Below, piece by piece: positions 23,789-48,176 of a stretch of DNA of 64,000 bases. A program made the translations under genes and the position numbers. How positions within the stretch are numbered: position 1 is the stretch's first letter; the number at the start of each line of letters is the position of its first letter. Origin of the DNA: Diogma glabrata (Eukaryota > Arthropoda > Insecta > Diptera > Cylindrotomidae); the NCBI GenBank assembly GCA_963693315.1, contig OY856188.1, positions 271,059,114 to 271,123,113 of the forward strand, written 5' to 3'. The notes under the pieces are model-generated. The model saw only the letters and a program-made list of their open reading frames with translations. It was not told where the DNA came from and ran no database searches.

Positions 23789-23988
23789 NNNNNNNNNNNN
23801 NNNNNNNNNNNNNNNNNNNNNNNNNNNNNNNNNNNNNNNNNNNNNNNNNNNNNNNNNNNNNNNNNNNNNNNNNNNNNNNNNNNNNNNNNNNNNNNNNNNN
23901 NNNNNNNNNNNNNNNNNNNNNNNNNNNNNNNNNNNNNNNNNNNNNNNNNNNNNNNNNNNNNNNNNNNNNNNNNNNNNNNNNNNNNNNN
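23789..23988. other. Assembly gap (200 N)
   Basis: A run of exactly 200 N, the usual placeholder for a gap of unknown size. It abuts the 455-bp satellite, so the true gap probably holds more satellite copies. Confidence 0.95.
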
Positions 23989-24420
23989 ATTTTGCAATCC
24001 ATACAATTTTAGAGCGATCTAGTTTCGAACCAATGAGAAAATTTTTAAACTTTAAAAAAGTCTATCATTCTCATCAGGGCTAGCCGACTAGATAAACTCT
24101 ACCAAAAAATGTCAACGCTAATGTATATAACCAAAAATTAGGTTACAACACTAGCGAAGTGTAAAAACAAAAAATTTACATAAACATACATTTAATAAAT
24201 TCAGGTTTAGTCAATTAATTTCTCTGGTGATCACTGTTTTGTTATACTCTAGACATTCTAGTATTGAATAACAAACTTGTATCTGTGAGAAGAAGATGAC
24301 TAGTCTTCACTTGTGTCTATTGACACATGATCAACAATTAATTCAGTAAATTATTTGTGATATAATATCACCCCGATGGAAAATCTCCCATCAAGAATAA
24401 TATAAGAACTGAATCTAAAA
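23989..24420 (-). repeat. Inverted monomer of the 455-bp satellite
   Basis: This is almost one full monomer of the array to its right, in reverse orientation. Read on the minus strand it begins in the TTTAGATTCAG part of the monomer, passes through the monomer start and stops at the gap. The head-to-head junction with the plus-strand array (about 24421-24431) is a short AT-rich run. Confidence 0.92.
24010..24101 (-). ncRNA. Predicted hammerhead ribozyme, inverted satellite copy
   Basis: The same 92-base structure as in the plus-strand monomers, read on the minus strand, with both core boxes and the paired stem III sequences conserved. It shows that the inverted monomer keeps the ribozyme intact. 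Confidence 0.7.
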
Positions 24421-24621
24421 AATTTTTTTTCTTCTCACAGATACAAGTTTGTTATTCAATACTAGAATGTCTAGAGTATAACAAAACAGTGATCACCAGA
24501 GAAATTAATTGACTAAACCTGAATTTATTAAATGTATGTTTATGTAAATTTTTTGTTTTTACACTTCGCTAGTGTTGTAACCTAATTTTTGGTTATATAC
24601 ATTAGCGTTGACATTTTTTGG

Positions 24622-24713
24622 TAGAGTTTATCTAGTCGGCTAGCCCTGATGAGAATGATAGACTTTTTTAAAGTTTAAAAATTTTCTCATTGGTTCGAAA
24701 CTAGATCGCTCTA
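24622..24713 (+). ncRNA. Predicted hammerhead ribozyme (type III), satellite monomer 1
   Basis: In order: outer helix TAGAG, a TTT internal loop, stem III 5' strand ATCTAGT, then TC as the NUH-type cleavage site (cut predicted between 24637 and 24638). Stem I follows as GGCTAGCC, then the CTGATGA core box. Stem II opens with GAA and closes with TTC; the GAAA core box follows, then stem III 3' strand CTAGAT (with the last A of GAAA pairing to the U of UC), a CG loop and outer helix CTCTA. All invariant core residues are present. Stem II is long and imperfect, with AATGA/TCATT pairing. Stem I is a perfect 8-base palindrome that leaves only a 2-base loop within one molecule but gives an 8-bp helix between two. 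The fold was made by hand. Confidence 0.75.
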
Positions 24714-25076
24714 AAATTGTATGGATTGCAAAATGTTTCATAATTTGCACCATAATTTTTTAGATTCAGTTCTTATATTATTCTTGATGGGAGATTTTCC
24801 ATCGGGGTGATATTATATCACAAATAATTTACTGAATTAATTGTTGATCATGTGTCAATAGACACAAGTGAAGACTAGTCATCTTCTTCTCACAGATACA
24901 AGTTTGTTATTCAATACTAGAATGTCTAGAGTATAACAAAACAGTGATCACCAGAGAAATTAATTGACTAAACCTGAATTTATTAAATGTATGTTTATGT
25001 AAATTTTTTGTTTTTACACTTCGCTAGTGTTGTAACCTAATTTTTGGTTATATACATTAGCGTTGACATTTTTTGG

Positions 25077-25168
25077 TAGAGTTTATCTAGTCGGCTAGCC
25101 CTGATGAGAATGATAGACTTTTTTAAAGTTTAAAAATTTTCTCATTGGTTCGAAACTAGATCGCTCTA
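25077..25168 (+). ncRNA. Predicted hammerhead ribozyme, satellite monomer 2
   Basis: Same 92-base structure as monomer 1, exactly 455 bp on. Predicted cut between 25092 and 25093. No change is seen in the core or stems. Confidence 0.75.
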
Positions 25169-25531
25169 AAATTGTATGGATTGCAAAATGTTTCATAATT
25201 TGCACCATAATTTTTTAGATTCAGTTCTTATATTATTCTTGATGGGAGATTTTCCATCGGGGTGATATTATATCACAAATAATTTACTGAATTAATTGTT
25301 GATCATGTGTCAATAGACACAAGTGAAGACTAGTCATCTTCTTCTCACAGATACAAGTTTGTTATTCAATACTAGAATGTCTAGAGTATAACAAAACAGT
25401 GATCACCAGAGAAATTAATTGACTAAACCTGAATTTATTAAATGTATGTTTATGTAAATTTTTTGTTTTTACACTTCGCTAGTGTTGTAACCTAATTTTT
25501 GGTTATATACATTAGCGTTGACATTTTTTGG

Positions 25532-25623
25532 TAGAGTTTATCTAGTCGGCTAGCCCTGATGAGAATGATAGACTTTTTTAAAGTTTAAAAATTTTCTCAT
25601 TGGTTCGAAACTAGATCGCTCTA
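25532..25623 (+). ncRNA. Predicted hammerhead ribozyme, satellite monomer 3
   Basis: Same structure, 455 bp after monomer 2, with predicted cut between 25547 and 25548. Cleavage at successive copies would release 455-nt monomer RNAs. Confidence 0.75.
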
Positions 25624-25986
25624 AAATTGTATGGATTGCAAAATGTTTCATAATTTGCACCATAATTTTTTAGATTCAGTTCTTATATTATTCTTGATGG
25701 GAGATTTTCCATCGGGGTGATATTATATCACAAATAATTTACTGAATTAATTGTTGATCATGTGTCAATAGACACAAGTGAAGACTAGTCATCTTCTTCT
25801 CACAGATACAAGTTTGTTATTCAATACTAGAATGTCTAGAGTATAACAAAACAGTGATCACCAGAGAAATTAATTGACTAAACCTGAATTTATTAAATGT
25901 ATGTTTATGTAAATTTTTTGTTTTTACACTTCGCTAGTGTTGTAACCTAATTTTTGGTTATATACATTAGCGTTGACATTTTTTGG

Positions 25987-26078
25987 TAGAGTTTATCTAG
26001 TCGGCTAGCCCTGATGAGAATGATAGACTTTTTTAAAGTTTAAAAATTTTCTCATTGGTTCGAAACTAGATCGCTCTA
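25987..26078 (+). ncRNA. Predicted hammerhead ribozyme, satellite monomer 4
   Basis: Same structure in the last, 3'-truncated monomer, with predicted cut between 26002 and 26003. The array ends about 125 bases further on. Confidence 0.75.
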
Positions 26079-26204
26079 AAATTGTATGGATTGCAAAATG
26101 TTTCATAATTTGCACCATAATTTTTTAGATTCAGTTCTAATATTATTCTTGATGGGAGATTTTCCATCGGGGTGATATTATATCACAAATAATTTACTGA
26201 ATTA

Positions 26205-28869: not shown

Positions 28870-30520
28870 ATCGTACTAGAAATAGTAATCAGTACGTAAT
28901 ATTCACTATTTTTTCGTATGACACGATTCCCCTAGTAACCAGTTTAAATTTATTTGATCTAGCTGAACCAAATTGATATTTAGTTTCTAATAAAAAACAT
29001 CATCAAAGCCTATACCAAATCAAATTTTAATTAAAATCGTACTAGGAATAATCAGTACGTAATATACATTATTTTTTCGTATGACACATTTTCCCGTGTA
29101 ACCCGTGTGATGTGCAAATAGTATTTAAGCCATTCAGTTTGAATTTATTTGATCTAGCTGGACTAAATTGCAATTTTGTTTCTAATAATAAAGATATTTT
29201 TTCGTATGACACATTTTCCCGTGTCACCCGTGTGATGTGTGAATAGTATTTAAGCCTTTCAGTTTGAATGTATTTGATCTAGCTGGACCAAATTGTTATT
29301 TTGTTTCTAATAATAAACATCATCAAAGCCTACCAAATCAAATTTTAATTAAAATCGTACTAGGAATAATCAGTACGTAATATACATTATTTTTTCGTAT
29401 GACACATTTTCCCGTGTAACCCGTGTGATGTGCGAAGCGAATAGTATTTAAGCCATTCAGTTTGAATTTATTTGATCTAGCTGAACTAAATTGCGATTTT
29501 GTTTCTAATAATAAAGATATTTTTTCGTATGACACATTTTCCCGTGTAACCCGTGTGATGTGCGAATAGTATTTAAGCCATTCAGTTTGAATGTATTTGA
29601 TTTAGCTGGACTAAATTGCAATTTTGTTTCTAATAATAAACATATTGTTTCGTATGACACATTTTCCCGTGTAACCCGTGTGATGTGCGAATAGTATTTA
29701 AGCCTTCCAGTTTGAATGTATTTGATCTAGCTGGGCCAAATTGCAATTTTGATTCTAATCATAAACATATTTTTTCGTATGACACATTTTCCCGTGCAAC
29801 CCGTGTGATGTGCGAATAGTATTTAAGCCATTCAGTTTGAATGTATTTGATTTAGCTGGGACTAAATTGCAATTTTGTTTCTAATAATAAACATATTTTT
29901 TCGTATGACACATTTTCCCGTGTAACCCGTGTGATGTGCGAATAGTATTTAAGCCATTCAGTTTGAATGTATTTGATCTAGCTGAATCAAATTGCAATTT
30001 AGTTTCTAATAATAAACATTATCAAAGCCTACCAAATCAAATTTTAATTAAAATCGTACTGGAAATAATTATTCCGAATTTATTTATTTATTTAGTCAAA
30101 TTAAGACAGTACAAAGAAATTACTAAAATCTAACACTTAATGACTAAAATAAATCTAAAATTTTAATACATATTAAAAAATAACAACAGAAAAAGAAAAG
30201 AATCAAGAATCAAACGGTATTGATTATTATTTTTTATTATTTTTTAATAATTAATAATTATTATTTTTTATTATTTTTTATTAATTATTATTTTTTTTTC
30301 GTATGACACATTTTCCCGTGTAATCCGTGTGATGTGCGAATAGTATTTAAGTCTTTCAGTTTGAATTTATTTGATCTAGCTGGACAAAATTGCAATTTTG
30401 TTACTAATAATAAACATTATCAATTCCTACCAAATCAAATTTTAATCAAAATCGTACTAGAAATAGTAATTAGTACGCAATTTTCACTATTTTTTCGCAT
30501 CACATAATTTCCCGTGTAAC
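28870..30520. repeat. ~127-bp tandem repeat with an optional ~65-bp module
   Basis: The word TTTCGTATGACACATTTTCC marks unit starts at about 29070, 29198, 29391, 29519, 29646, 29773 and 29900, with older units near 28913, 30293 and 30490. Steps are 127-128 bp, except one of about 193 where a module with AAATCGTACTAGGAATAATC is present. Units also carry CCCGTGTAACCCGTGTGATG and TTTGATCTAGCTGGAC. The array is interrupted at 30070-30290 by AT-rich sequence. Open frames in this stretch are by-products. Confidence 0.88.
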
Positions 30521-31690: not shown

Positions 31691-33559
<1,869 letters not shown>

Positions 33560-42576: not shown

Positions 42577-45500
42577 CAAAAAAAAACGCAAAAAGTGATC
42601 GCTTCCGCGTGGATTTGCTCTATATACAAGTGTATTAAAAACAATTAACAAGTGAAGTGTCATAAAACAATTAAATTTTCTTTAAAAAAAACATAATATT
42701 TCGTATAAAAAAAATTTTTTTTTTCTGAAGTGATTAGTGACAGTGGGTGGTGAATTTTTATTAGAAGACTCCTAAATTTTAAATGAAAAAAAAAAAAAAC
42801 AAAAAATAATCGATTATCGAAAATAGAAAAACAAGTGTGTTATAGTGTTTGTGTTTATGAAAATAAAAGTATTGAAGAACGGACGCGTATAATTGGTGAG
42901 ATTGTTCTTTATTAAAAAATTATTTGGTATTTTGTTTTTACTATTGCCAAGCGGTAGGCAGGCAAAATTTTACCTTTTATTGCTTTGATGTAATAAGTTT
43001 ATTTATTACATTAAACTTTAAAGCATAAATTTGCTTTATATTGCTTGGCAACAAAAAATTTTGTTTTAGTTGTTAATGATTTTTTTGGATTGATTGAGAT
43101 TTTTTTTGTGAAGTTTTTTGACATGATCTAGCTCCTCCTCCTACCTCGGACTTATCTTAGGAGTTGGAAAATATCAGTTAGTTGATTATGAAATGTCTTA
43201 TTTTTGACAAAAGTTAGGAATTTCGAATTTAACCCTTTATTTGTACTCTTCAATTTTGTTAGTGTCTTTTGTGTCCTCATTTTTTTTTCTTGGTTTTCTT
43301 TTATCGTGCTACTGTTGCATGAAATCTGCTATCGTGTTTTTGTGACAGAGATACACAGTTTTATTTGTACCGTTTAGTGTTGAAATTTAGGCCTGGCCGA
43401 ATTTCAGTAGCTATACCTGCAATGTCAAAGGGTAAGTCTTTGTCTCAACAAAATGGCCGCAGAGTGAACCAACAGCTTAGCATTGACTTCACGAACATAA
43501 GAGGTCTCAATCCGAATCTAAACGTGGTTCATCATTACATCGAAAAAAATAAACCTGACATATTGTTTCTTACCGAAACAATTGTTAGTGGCAAAGCATC
43601 GAAATTGGATCCCGATAAATACCGGACACCTAGTTACGAATTGGAACATTCCTTTTATAACAAGCAGGGTGTCTGTGTATTTGTTCGAGATTCACTTTCA
43701 TGTATGAGAATTAAGGCCTACGAGTTGAACTCTAAGCACCATATTTCTAAAGCACTGAAGATCTCAGGTGTTGATGAAACTATGTTTATAATAGGATTAT
43801 ACAGATCCCCAAATTCTCCCCCAGGATGTCCCTTTTTTGATCAAATATCGGCTAATCTAGACAAGATTACCACGGACTACCCCAAAGCAAGACTGGCCAT
43901 TCTTGGAGACTTTAATATTCATAATAAAGAATGGCTTAAGTATTCATCGCGCACTGACGACGTAGGAAGACAAGCTGAACTGATACTCGCAGATTATCAG
44001 GGTTTGACGCAAATGATAGAGTGTCCCACTAGAATCGCAGACAATTCACATCATAACAATAATTTGCTGGATTTGTTTTTGACAAACGAACCAGATACTA
44101 CGAAGACAAAAGTTGAACAACCCCTCAGAACATCGGACCATTTACTAATATCAGCAACAGTGCAATTTACATCACCGACACAAATTAAAGCAAATCCTCG
44201 TCGCGTTTGGAACTACAAACACGCCAACTGGGAGGGACTGAGAAGCTTTTATGATGAAACACCTTGGAAAACTATTTGTTGTGTTGATCAAGATCCTAGC
44301 ACGTCAGCAATAAGAATGTCTGAAATCACAAAAGACGGAATGCGGCGGTTTATTCCAAATCGATTAATCACTCCTAAAACTGAGCCTTGGTTCACACGGG
44401 ATGTTGATGAGGCAGTAAGGAATAAACGCAAAGCATTCAAGACGTATAACGCTAATAAAACACCTGAAACCCATAGCGCCTATAAGAAAGCCAGAAATAT
44501 TAGTAAATTCAAAATAGACTTGGACAAAGACGCGTTTATCCAGAAGAAAGCAAAGAAATTCGCCGAGCACCCATCTGGCTCACGTAGTTTCTTTCAGGCA
44601 GTTAAATCAGTCCAGAGCAATTTTACTCGATCCTATATTCCAACCTTAGTTCTGAATGACATTCCCGTGAGCGACTCGAAGGAGAAGGCGGATCTTTTGG
44701 GTCGTATTTTCGCAGAAAACTCAAACATAGTTGAACCTCCCCATTCTCCTACACTCATTCCCCCAGTTGTAACGAAAATGAAACCAATTATTTTTCGTTG
44801 CAATATTGTACGGAAAATGCTTCTTTCTATCAATATCAACAAATCTGCTGGCCCCGACGGTATTCCACCCCTCATTCTTAAAAACTTTGCTAGGCAACTA
44901 GCTCCAATTTTAACAAAAATTTTCTATTTATCTTATAAAATCGGAATATTTCCCGATTCTTGGAAGCTGGCCAGCGTTCAACCCATATCAAAGAAAGGCA
45001 GTAAGATAGATCCTAACAATTATAGACCAATTGCAATTCTGTCGGTTTTAGCTAAAATATTTGAAAAATATGTTAACTACAATTTAATAGATTATTTGGA
45101 GGTGTCACGAATTATTGATGATAAACAGTATGGTTTTCGTAGAAGTCATGCAACAGGTGATCTGTTAGCCTACGTTTCCCATTTCTGGAACAAATCGCTG
45201 GAAAACCATGGTGAAACATTCAGTATTTCACTTGACATTTCTAAAGCATTTGATAAAGTGTGGCATAAAAATCTCATAGCTAAATTAAAATCTTATGGCA
45301 TAGACCATCTTACTGTCTCGTGGATTCATAGTTTTCTTACAGGTCGCCAATTTCATGTTAATTTAGATGGTATCACATCCAATATTTTCACAACCAATGC
45401 TGGGGTTCCCCAAGGTTCTGCACTCTCACCAACCTTGTTTCTTCTATACATTAATGACTTACTTATTTCCACAGTGCACCCAATCCATAGTTTTGCTGAT

Positions 45501-46510
45501 GACAGCACATTGCATGCATCACATGCATCTCCTAAATTTCGATCTCATACTGCAGTTACCACCGATAGAGAGCTGCTAATTGATTCTATCAACAAAGATC
45601 AGGAGCGTATAATGGAATGGGGTGATCGTAATCTTGTTTCATTTAATCCAACCAAAACAAAACTATGTCGTCTTTCACGAATAGAGGGACATAAAAATTT
45701 CCCTATCAAAATAGGCCATGAGGAATTCCGTGAGGTTGAATCAGTTAGACTTCTTGGAGTGGATATTCAAAATAACCTGACATGGAATAAACATGTGTTC
45801 AACCTCGCTAAATCTGCAATGCCAATATTAGGATTCTTGAGTCGATGTAAAAAGTATTTCAATCCCGAGCAAATTTTGCTAATCTTCAAGTCCTTTATTC
45901 GTCCATGTATGGAGTACTGCTGTCATGTTTGGGGAGGTGCTTGTCAGTCAACAATAAAATGTCTAGACTCTGTACAGAGAAAAGCAATACGGTTGATTGG
46001 TAATACCGAACTAACGGATCAGCTTGATTCACTCCAGCACAGAAGAAATGTGGCTGAATTGTCAATCTACTATAAATATAACTTTAGCAAATTCTCCTCT
46101 AAGGAAATTCAAACTATCCTTCCATCATGTGCGCAGTATAATCGACAAACAAGAGCTGCCGAGTCATCCCATCCATTTGTTGTACAAATACCTCGTTGCA
46201 GAACCGTGTCCTTTCAGAACGACTATTTTAATAGAGTGGCCAAGTTGTGGAACTCAATGCCTTCCTCTGTATTTCCCGATGAATTTTCCCCTTTTCCCCG
46301 CATTTAAAGAAAATGTCCATCATCACTTAAAAAAATTAGTATAGTTATCCCTATATCCCCATTCCTTCCATTTTCCTCATATCCTTCCTTTATAGTTGAC
46401 ATGGTATCTTCGAATATTCAAAGAGTCTAAATAATGAATATTTCATATATATATATATTTAGTGTGATAAACATGTCTAACTAATTAATAAAAAAAAAAA
46501 AAAAAAAAAA
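42577..46510 (+). mobile_element. Full-length, apparently intact LINE with 7-bp target duplication
   Basis: AGTAAGT occurs at 42570-42576 and 46511-46517. The element ends in about 20 A residues (46491-46510). Removing it rejoins family R sequence: GAAGTAAGTGGTGGGGGG parallels GACCAAAGTGGTGTGGGG in the copy at 31500. The 788-base 5' region has no long frame, then one ORF of 980 codons, then a short 3' UTR. The intact target duplication, tail and ORF point to a recent insertion. Other copies of this family are at 9606-11190, 26205-26990 and 62239-64000. Confidence 0.92.
43365..46307 (+). CDS. LINE endonuclease-reverse transcriptase, 980 aa, uninterrupted
   Basis: N-terminal APE-like endonuclease: NIRGL, FLTETIVS (residues about 65-72), IIGLYRSPNSPPG, LGDFNIHNKEW (about 180-190) and TSDHLLIS (about 255). 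Reverse transcriptase: INKSAGPDGIPP, NNYRPIAILSVLAK, SISLDISKAFDKVWHK (motif A, about 618), NAGVPQGSALSPTLF (motif B, about 680) and HSFADDSTLH (motif C, about 708). A C-terminal region has FIRPCMEYCCHVWGG and IPRCRTVSFQNDYFNRVAKLW. All catalytic residues I can identify are present and there are no stops. The protein would nick target DNA and prime cDNA synthesis there. The first in-frame methionine is used; a second at MSKGKS (about residue 20) could be the true start. No ORF1 nucleic-acid chaperone was found. It is of Jockey/CR1-group type; the exact clade is not certain. Confidence 0.93.
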   Translation: MYRLVLKFRPGRISVAIPAMSKGKSLSQQNGRRVNQQLSIDFTNIRGLNPNLNVVHHYIEKNKPDILFLTETIVSGKASKLDPDKYRTPSYELEHSFYNKQGVCVFVRDSLSCMRIKAYELNSKHHISKALKISGVDETMFIIGLYRSPNSPPGCPFFDQISANLDKITTDYPKARLAILGDFNIHNKEWLKYSSRTDDVGRQAELILADYQGLTQMIECPTRIADNSHHNNNLLDLFLTNEPDTTKTKVEQPLRTSDHLLISATVQFTSPTQIKANPRRVWNYKHANWEGLRSFYDETPWKTICCVDQDPSTSAIRMSEITKDGMRRFIPNRLITPKTEPWFTRDVDEAVRNKRKAFKTYNANKTPETHSAYKKARNISKFKIDLDKDAFIQKKAKKFAEHPSGSRSFFQAVKSVQSNFTRSYIPTLVLNDIPVSDSKEKADLLGRIFAENSNIVEPPHSPTLIPPVVTKMKPIIFRCNIVRKMLLSININKSAGPDGIPPLILKNFARQLAPILTKIFYLSYKIGIFPDSWKLASVQPISKKGSKIDPNNYRPIAILSVLAKIFEKYVNYNLIDYLEVSRIIDDKQYGFRRSHATGDLLAYVSHFWNKSLENHGETFSISLDISKAFDKVWHKNLIAKLKSYGIDHLTVSWIHSFLTGRQFHVNLDGITSNIFTTNAGVPQGSALSPTLFLLYINDLLISTVHPIHSFADDSTLHASHASPKFRSHTAVTTDRELLIDSINKDQERIMEWGDRNLVSFNPTKTKLCRLSRIEGHKNFPIKIGHEEFREVESVRLLGVDIQNNLTWNKHVFNLAKSAMPILGFLSRCKKYFNPEQILLIFKSFIRPCMEYCCHVWGGACQSTIKCLDSVQRKAIRLIGNTELTDQLDSLQHRRNVAELSIYYKYNFSKFSSKEIQTILPSCAQYNRQTRAAESSHPFVVQIPRCRTVSFQNDYFNRVAKLWNSMPSSVFPDEFSPFPRI

Positions 46511-46840: not shown

Positions 46841-48176
46841 TCGTACATCAGAATTTATGTTTGATGGGATACTACTGCTTCCTTTAATATTTTTATAATT
46901 AGAACTACGAAGTCTATAACATTGGTTAGCTTTTAATTAAAGTATTTGATGGATATTAGCTCATTTTATATCCAGAACACTATGTTTCCAGAGCTGTGGT
47001 GAAGTCAGCCTATGCATCAGCGTCGCAATATTTTCTTCTATTGAAATTGTAATAAAGATTATATATATATAAACTTATTCATACATTTTAATTATTTATA
47101 TAAAAATTTTAAAAATAAAATAATTCATCAAAGTTAAGTTGATCTAACTTCAGTTTTACGTATGATCTGTTTTTAATTTTACTGATTTGTAAATTTTTTT
47201 ATTTTTGGTCTACGGGCGTGACAAGCCGTACAAGATAACAAATCATTAGCTCAAGATAAAAAATCTTTCTCGAGACCGGCTTTTTCGAGCAGAAACTCTA
47301 CTTGAGACTTTAAAAGCCATTTTATGTGTGAAAAATAATTTAACAAATTCTTGTGGAATATTTCATGACCTTTTCAACAACAATAGTAACCTTCTAAAAA
47401 AATTTACGCAAATAAGAAATATTCCGAAGAATGAAATAATACTATACATAATTTTTTTTATTTATTGTACGTTGCACTTTTCGTTTTTATATTTCTCAAT
47501 AGCGGCTTATTTATAGACTATATTATTATTAAAAAAATAAAAAGATTTGCACTTTTCATGTATTTCAAATAATATATTCCAATATTGGGGATTTTTTGAG
47601 ATCAATTAAACTCACGTAAGTAAAGAAGTAATTAAAATGTTTTCAATTCAAAGGTATGGTTGGAAGTTTCTCAGAAAAAAACTCCGTTTCACATTTTTCG
47701 TGTTTCCTCAGTACCTCAGTGCCTGGTTCGAATCCTTAGGCAGACACGCTATCGATTACGCCGTTGAGGCGATGACAATTTTGAAGTTGAAACTTCTACA
47801 TCACTTATTTAATTTACTTAAGTTGAATTTTAAGTTGACTCCATATTATGGAAATGTTTTACATATTACAATATAATTTTTTCGTTCTATGAAAATTTTT
47901 TTTGCATTATATAGACCCACCTCTCAGGTCAATGGTGTCCCACTTTGCCAATGTTAAAATCTGGTCACCTTACATTATGCAGTAGTTTGGAACCCTCAAA
48001 ATAACGCACAATTCAAAACCCCATAATTCGAGACTAAGAGTTAATAGAAAATTGTGGGTTCGGTACCGAAGAAAAATATTTATGATCATGAAAAGCTATT
48101 TTTACCAATATATATTTGTATATAAAAAAAATTTTCTATTCACTTGAAAAACCAATCTTTTATGTTTTATAAAACA
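46841..48176. other. AT-rich stretch without a supported gene
   Basis: A plus-strand open frame of 79 codons at 47637-47876 has no recognisable domain. Inside it, GGTTCGAATCC (about 47727) matches an RNA polymerase III B box, but no tRNA fold is possible. Nothing else is seen. Confidence 0.4.

Follow-up and report, generated by a model that had tools for sequence, protein, structure and literature searches.

Does a tandem repeat that carries the conserved parts of a hammerhead in every unit also encode a working ribozyme? The question is raised by a satellite within the 64,000-nucleotide stretch of Diogma glabrata DNA analysed here (hereafter the window), in which a first-pass annotation had read one hammerhead ribozyme per monomer. 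In animal satellites, hammerheads have been linked with circular RNAs and with the spread of retrozymes.

The repeat itself is readily delineated. Tandem Repeats Finder, together with a BLAST search of the monomer against the window, placed an array with a 455-bp period at 24429-26204 on the plus strand, with 3.9 head-to-tail copies and 99% matches, which bears out the satellite first proposed at 24431..26204. A single base varies across the plus-strand copies (T to A at 26139). At a distance of 4 bp, a partial monomer copy of 436 nt lies on the minus strand (23989-24424) and is 100% complementary to the array. The copies are thus nearly identical and one of them stands head-to-head with the rest. 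This inverted copy directly adjoins an assembly gap of 200 N (23789-23988), which makes both the inversion and the full extent of the array uncertain; the head-to-head arrangement beside the gap could be an assembly artefact. By eye, no flanking repeat of the target-site duplication kind was found, the left end lying in or beside the same gap. The array probably grew at the level of DNA, by a route that we infer to be unequal exchange or repair-linked copying. With a period of 455 bp, a GC content of 29% and no stop-free stretch longer than 39 codons, the monomer has the properties of metazoan retrozyme repeats, which are tandem, noncoding, low in GC and about 150-450 bp long. The arms of the head-to-head arrangement (23989-24294 and 24429-24734) are 100% complementary over 306 nt and spaced by 134 nt; an RNA spanning the inversion (23989-24734) would fold back into a long hairpin without mismatches and might give rise to small RNAs.

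On the plus strand, every monomer presents in type III order a stem III strand, GUC, GGCTAGCC, CUGAUGAG, CGAAAC and the second strand of stem III. In the first monomer, an outer helix is formed by TAGAG (24622-24626) and CTCTA (24709-24713), and a stem III of 7 bp by ATCTAGT (24630-24636) and ACTAGAT (24700-24706), the latter following GAA. The C at 24637 ends the GUC triplet and is the predicted cleavage-site nucleotide, which we take to be C17 from the hammerhead consensus; its equivalents are at 25092, 25547 and 26002, and the inverted copy has its own on the minus strand. The stem I region is the 8-nt palindrome GGCTAGCC (24638-24645), followed by the core strand CTGATGAG (24646-24653). 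The stem II region spans 44 nt (24653-24696), shares its first and last bases with the core strands, and has an inner hairpin; folded as a hammerhead, it would pair over 4 bp at its base. Within it lies a strand, TTTTCTCATTGG (24682-24693), that is predicted to pair with CTGATGAGAA and so to hide the core; we refer to it as the anti-core strand. The second core strand, CGAAAC, occupies 24696-24701.

A strict-core descriptor, run over the 64 kb on both strands in type I and in type III order with loops of at most 80 nt, matched five places, all inside the 455-bp repeat. The canonical core (a UH cleavage site, CUGANGA and GAAA, a list that appears in part in PMC3088659) is present in all five as GUC, CUGAUGAG and CGAAAC. 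Coordinates and descriptor agree with the elements first noticed in register, namely the cleavage site, CTGATGA, GAAA, the 7-bp stem III and TAGAG/CTCTA. The five copies of the first-pass annotation stand as a total; four lie within its coordinates, and the fifth is in the inverted copy at 24093-24017 on the minus strand. A custom covariance model, described below, located the further motifs at 25085-25161, 25540-25616 and 25995-26071 (plus strand) and, with the descriptor, the inverted one at 24017-24093. As the motif sequence is identical in all copies, the five amount to one observation. The type I layout that characterises known animal retrozymes was sought with the same strict core on both strands, without a match, and the descriptor found no hammerhead in the other arrays of the window.

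The most direct reading of these elements is a working type III hammerhead of retrozyme-like habit. Multimeric transcripts would cut themselves within every monomer to 455-nt RNAs, a host ligase would circularise them and the circles would be copied into DNA. All five copies keep an intact core and stem III, which speaks for this reading; we nevertheless hold it to be unlikely on the evidence of stem I, of predicted folding and of covariance searches.

At the gathering cut-offs of Rfam release 15, zero families matched in the whole window. This is a weak test, since the same cut-off recovers a hammerhead in just one of 14 control loci with type III layouts (the 13 without a match being L099, L102, L104, L105, L108, L109, L116, L121, L125, L148, L151, L159 and L173). 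A search at E<=10 is a stronger test. Here the Rfam hammerhead models gave no match in 2.9 kb or in the 116 nt around the motif, and the Rfam search, one of the checks proposed in the first-pass annotation, was thus negative. At the same settings, control L099 was matched by Hammerhead_3 in register (40.3 bits) and control L151 by HH9 (22.5 bits); as the latter match is shifted in register, the layout assigned to L151 may be wrong. The lack of any Rfam hammerhead match at E<=10 weighs against a working ribozyme. Matches to unrelated families at this threshold all fell below those families' own cut-offs and were judged to be chance.

A custom model, R1, was built from 18 putative type III layouts in viral contigs, picked by pattern and stems, and was run with filters off; its E-values are rough. 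The five copies each score 26.3 bits with R1 (E 7.9e-5 over 64 kb), a result in favour of a working ribozyme. The next place in the window, 47697-47750 on the minus strand, reaches 15.5 bits (E 0.065) and was judged to be chance. The 18 training sequences score 41.9-69.9 bits, all above the window's motif and high by construction, and matches outside the training set range from about 15 to 61 bits. This spread puts the motif between the comparison hammerheads and the background. Several viral contigs (L076, L105, L108, L126 and L147) hold more than one R1 match, hundreds to thousands of bases apart; L076, between 263 and 5149, has four at 37.5-56.1 bits and another at 982-1027 that is by eye of type I.

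Could the core have been spelled by accident? The motif region is a 92-nt imperfect hairpin, one of several palindromes in the repeat, and pure coincidence in such a hairpin is a tentative explanation to which we give a lesser but real chance, as one part of the reading preferred below. The full canonical core amounts to 17 letters with G10.1-C11.1, and it is accompanied by a stem III of 7 bp and a stem I region that is palindromic throughout. Over 400 shuffles of the window without the array, a minimal descriptor averaged 0.025 matches each, none of them with a stem of 7 bp or longer (0/400). Among 20,000 shuffled monomers scored on both strands, seven matched, one of them with a stem of at least 7 bp. 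Because the motif region is an imperfect hairpin, random-letter hairpins of the same shape were drawn as well: 3,985 of 1,406,400,000 passed the descriptor, about 3 per million, and 1,080 of these had a stem III of at least 7 bp.

The motif is thus above chance within this window. Such low pass rates make it improbable in any given repeat, yet across a large genome or many scanned windows one could still arise by chance; genome-wide, its significance is not clearly established. The E-value of R1, rough as it is, scales to about one such match per gigabase, and a genome holds very many hairpins of which some 3 per million would pass; both points favour coincidence, as does the fact that a longer, competing hairpin in the region encloses the core. 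Against it, the chance for one given monomer is small (7/20,000 shuffles, one with a long stem), and the stem I palindrome and canonical flanking pairs come in addition.

Stem I was left out of the first-pass annotation. Between C17 and CTGATGAG there are 8 nt, GGCTAGCC, which within a single RNA can give 2 bp and a CUAG tetraloop. Two of the three helices are able to form, stem III with 7 bp and stem II with 4 bp; stem I is limited to 2 bp under a 4-nt loop unless two RNAs or copies pair over 8 bp. Contact between stems I and II raises hammerhead activity by orders of magnitude at low magnesium, according to passages of PMC3088659 and PMC6155905. An 8-nt stem I leaves little room for a contact between its loop and that of stem II, which argues against a working monomer. 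A perfect 8-nt palindrome is also the residue expected of a hairpin stem after deletion of its loop, and it permits 8-bp pairing between RNAs.

Viral contigs offer a comparison for so short a stem I. They contain 95 stretches with the exact 17-letter core and an 8-nt stem I, none of which combines at least 2 bp in stem I, 3 in stem II and 5 in stem III, and none of which reaches even two of the values I>=2, II>=4 and III>=7. Among layouts with a stem I region of 12-40 nt, 18 of 169 show stems of at least 3 bp (I), 3 bp (II) and 5 bp (III). Some of the 95 stretches are not chance, since those of L032 (2857-2902) and L076 (982-1027) look by eye like hammerheads of type I whose order was misread. 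With R1, applied to 80 of the 95 loci, the stretch in L032 scores 29.6 bits, above the 26.3 bits of the window's motif, which tells against a clean separation by the model.

The second obstacle is the predicted fold. In the minimum free-energy structure, most of CUGAUGAGAA is paired with the strand at 24682-24693. The hammerhead fold has -15.7 kcal/mol against -28.0 kcal/mol for the minimum, a gap of 12.3 kcal/mol, whereas the gaps of the 18 comparison layouts range from 0 to 6.6 kcal/mol with a median of 1.1 (the 6.6 belongs to L151, the next being 4.2). The controls give the base pair at the foot of stem II a median probability of 0.956 and a minimum of 0.006; in the window it is 6e-9, and 8e-8 when the motif is folded within 1 kb of sequence. 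The core is accordingly not predicted to be accessible, lying 12.3 kcal/mol above the minimum with a stem II foot less probable than in every control. Core openness is 0.303 in the window and 0.671 at the control median, with one of the 18 controls lower (0.058). Stem III fares better, its probability of 0.536 exceeding the control median of 0.359; the controls are themselves uneven, with stem III probabilities down to 4e-6 and a stem I probability down to 4.5e-5 in L102. All these values come from energy models that omit tertiary contacts, Mg2+ and proteins.

The lock is predicted to close early. Each of the eight growing prefixes that were folded has its core paired at least in part, and from end point 24690 onward the partner is the anti-core strand, before GAAA has been made. 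If the repeat is transcribed, CUGAUGAGAA would, on this prefix folding, pair with the emerging UUUUCUCAUUGG at a point where neither GAAA nor the second half of stem III exists yet. A misfolding gap of 12.3 kcal/mol is a further argument against a working monomer.

The monomer as a whole folds strongly, with a z-score of -5.1 over 100 shuffles and -8.7 over 20 shuffles, and in circular form with -5.6 on one strand and -4.4 on the other. We rejected strong folding as proof of RNA function: of 66 further 455-bp pieces, each compared with 20 shuffles, four have z-scores of -5 or lower and two go beyond the monomer's -8.7, some of them in TA repeats. Because the other strand and other pieces also fold strongly, the folding of the monomer is not decisive, and strong folding of both strands is what DNA palindromes would give. 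Elsewhere in the window, the segment 6371-6825 has a very strong predicted folding (z -17, 20 shuffles) and is probably a long inverted repeat.

Could two copies do what one cannot? Of the readings that survive, the boldest is a double hammerhead with stem I as the joint, in which two copies within one tandem transcript, or two RNAs, would share GGCUAGCC as an 8-bp stem I. We judge it rather unlikely. In detail, and with the same reserve, the partners would swap their stems III and form two active sites, with the anti-core strand keeping the ribozyme off until the core is freed. The palindrome is perfect, and two RNAs are predicted to reach a minimum of -67.6 kcal/mol, compared with -56.0 for the two folded separately; this minimum has the topology of a double hammerhead, with swapped stems III, an 8-bp palindromic stem I and C17 unpaired; its core is still locked. 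With outer helices left out, a dimer with an active core has -34.6 kcal/mol against -53.6 for the locked form, and this cost of 19 kcal/mol tells against the reading. On these models, dimerisation would mend stem I and leave the lock in place. The stricter version, a monomer that is dead by itself, becomes active through palindromic stem I joining and is held off by the anti-core strand, is in our estimate quite unlikely. Were it true, an animal satellite would hold a ribozyme that inhibits itself, and stem I, not stem III, would be the helix through which it dimerises. To our knowledge, no hammerhead dimerises through stem I, and a search of literature titles, which covered few subscription journals, had nothing on this monomer or on stem I dimers among the matches listed.

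Precedents for dimers exist elsewhere. In newts, hammerheads work as dimers joined by an elongated helix III, according to an excerpt of PMC6155905, and those of Penelope-type elements may also be dimeric, according to one of PMC7761336; both lend some plausibility to a double hammerhead. The likeness lies in one stem too weak alone, which a dimer would help. The weak stem is stem III in newt hammerheads and stem I here, where the dimer is a prediction.

Comparison with other known systems shows where the motif stands. Animal retrozymes are described in part of PMC7229834 as tandem repeats with type I hammerheads. Like the metazoan (non-LTR) retrozymes in passages of PMC7229834 and PMC7761336, the present monomers are tandem, noncoding, AT-rich and a few hundred base pairs long, with a hammerhead core and an RNA predicted to be highly self-paired. 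The monomer, at 29% GC and strongly folded, thus fits a working retrozyme; against that reading, the published animal retrozymes in those passages carry type I and not type III hammerheads. The present motif has the type III order, an almost absent stem I and a core predicted to be locked. The pDo500 satellite of Dolichopoda cave crickets is likewise an insect repeat of about 500 bp with a hammerhead sequence, but its transcripts self-cleave in vitro and its ribozyme is conserved across species, as stated in an excerpt of PMC2837043.

In its order of an open stem III, GUC, CUGAUGAG and CGAAAC, the motif resembles the type III hammerheads of viral contigs and of plant retrozymes (Rfam RF00008). 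It differs in the stem I region, which is 8 nt here and 13-35 nt in the 18 comparison layouts, and in its R1 score of 26.3 against 41.9-69.9 bits. Passages of PMC7761336 place type III hammerheads mostly in plants and their circular RNA agents, also in prokaryotes and phages and in delta-like circular RNAs of toads and termites; insect elements of type III are also mentioned in that review. No viral contig contained an 18-mer from the core region, and an 18-fixed-letter pattern had no occurrence in prokaryote genome contigs; both negatives are weak, since neither collection comprises insect genomes.

Taken together, these observations leave us with moderate confidence in a 455-bp satellite with an intact core, an 8-nt palindrome for stem I and a predicted lock on that core, whose single transcripts would cut poorly or not at all. 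It is the palindromic stem I and the predicted lock that make poor or absent cutting probable. The satellite is likely a recently amplified, hairpin-rich repeat whose hammerhead-like motif is inactive as a monomer, and within this reading a remnant hammerhead that lost its stem I loop and a coincidence in a hairpin-rich repeat are about equally likely. The first-pass claim that each monomer encodes a hammerhead ribozyme thus holds for a core in type III order that scores 26.3 bits with R1, and is weakened for a working ribozyme by a 2-bp stem I, a gap of 12.3 kcal/mol against a control maximum of 6.6 and the lack of an Rfam match at E<=10.

For an inactive monomer we counted the stem I of only 8 nt, the missing Rfam match, the gap of 12.3 kcal/mol, the prefixes predicted to be locked and the strong folding of both strands. 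Against it count the rarity of a core with a 7-bp stem III and a palindrome, the separation by R1 (26.3 against 15.5 bits) and the consideration that decay would be expected to strike the core as well as stem I. So do the comparison layouts, which were chosen by pattern, the tertiary contacts, Mg2+ and proteins omitted from the energy models, and the working hammerheads that low-GC animal repeats of 150-450 bp carry in an excerpt of PMC7229834, the monomer here having 29% GC. A core kept intact beside a stem I that has shrunk to a palindrome would illustrate the decay of such ribozymes or reveal a new dimer mode, and a negative cutting result would mean that an exact core and stem III are insufficient to call a ribozyme.

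Scans for bacterial promoters and terminators and for tRNAs returned nothing of use in the window. A further array at 28940-30019 has periods of 125 bp and 323 bp whose consensus units share a segment, and holds no hammerhead by the descriptor. A TA repeat of 617 bp (309 units) lies at 32389-33005. The long open frame at 43323-46307 encodes a LINE-type reverse transcriptase with endonuclease domains; its best 15 relatives are 38-45% identical, one of them from Armadillidium vulgare, and the closer named matches are arthropods. Transposon-like proteins point to a likely insect as the source of the window; for one transposon-type protein, the named relatives among the matches listed (120 of 397) are Hymenoptera, namely ants and parasitoid wasps.
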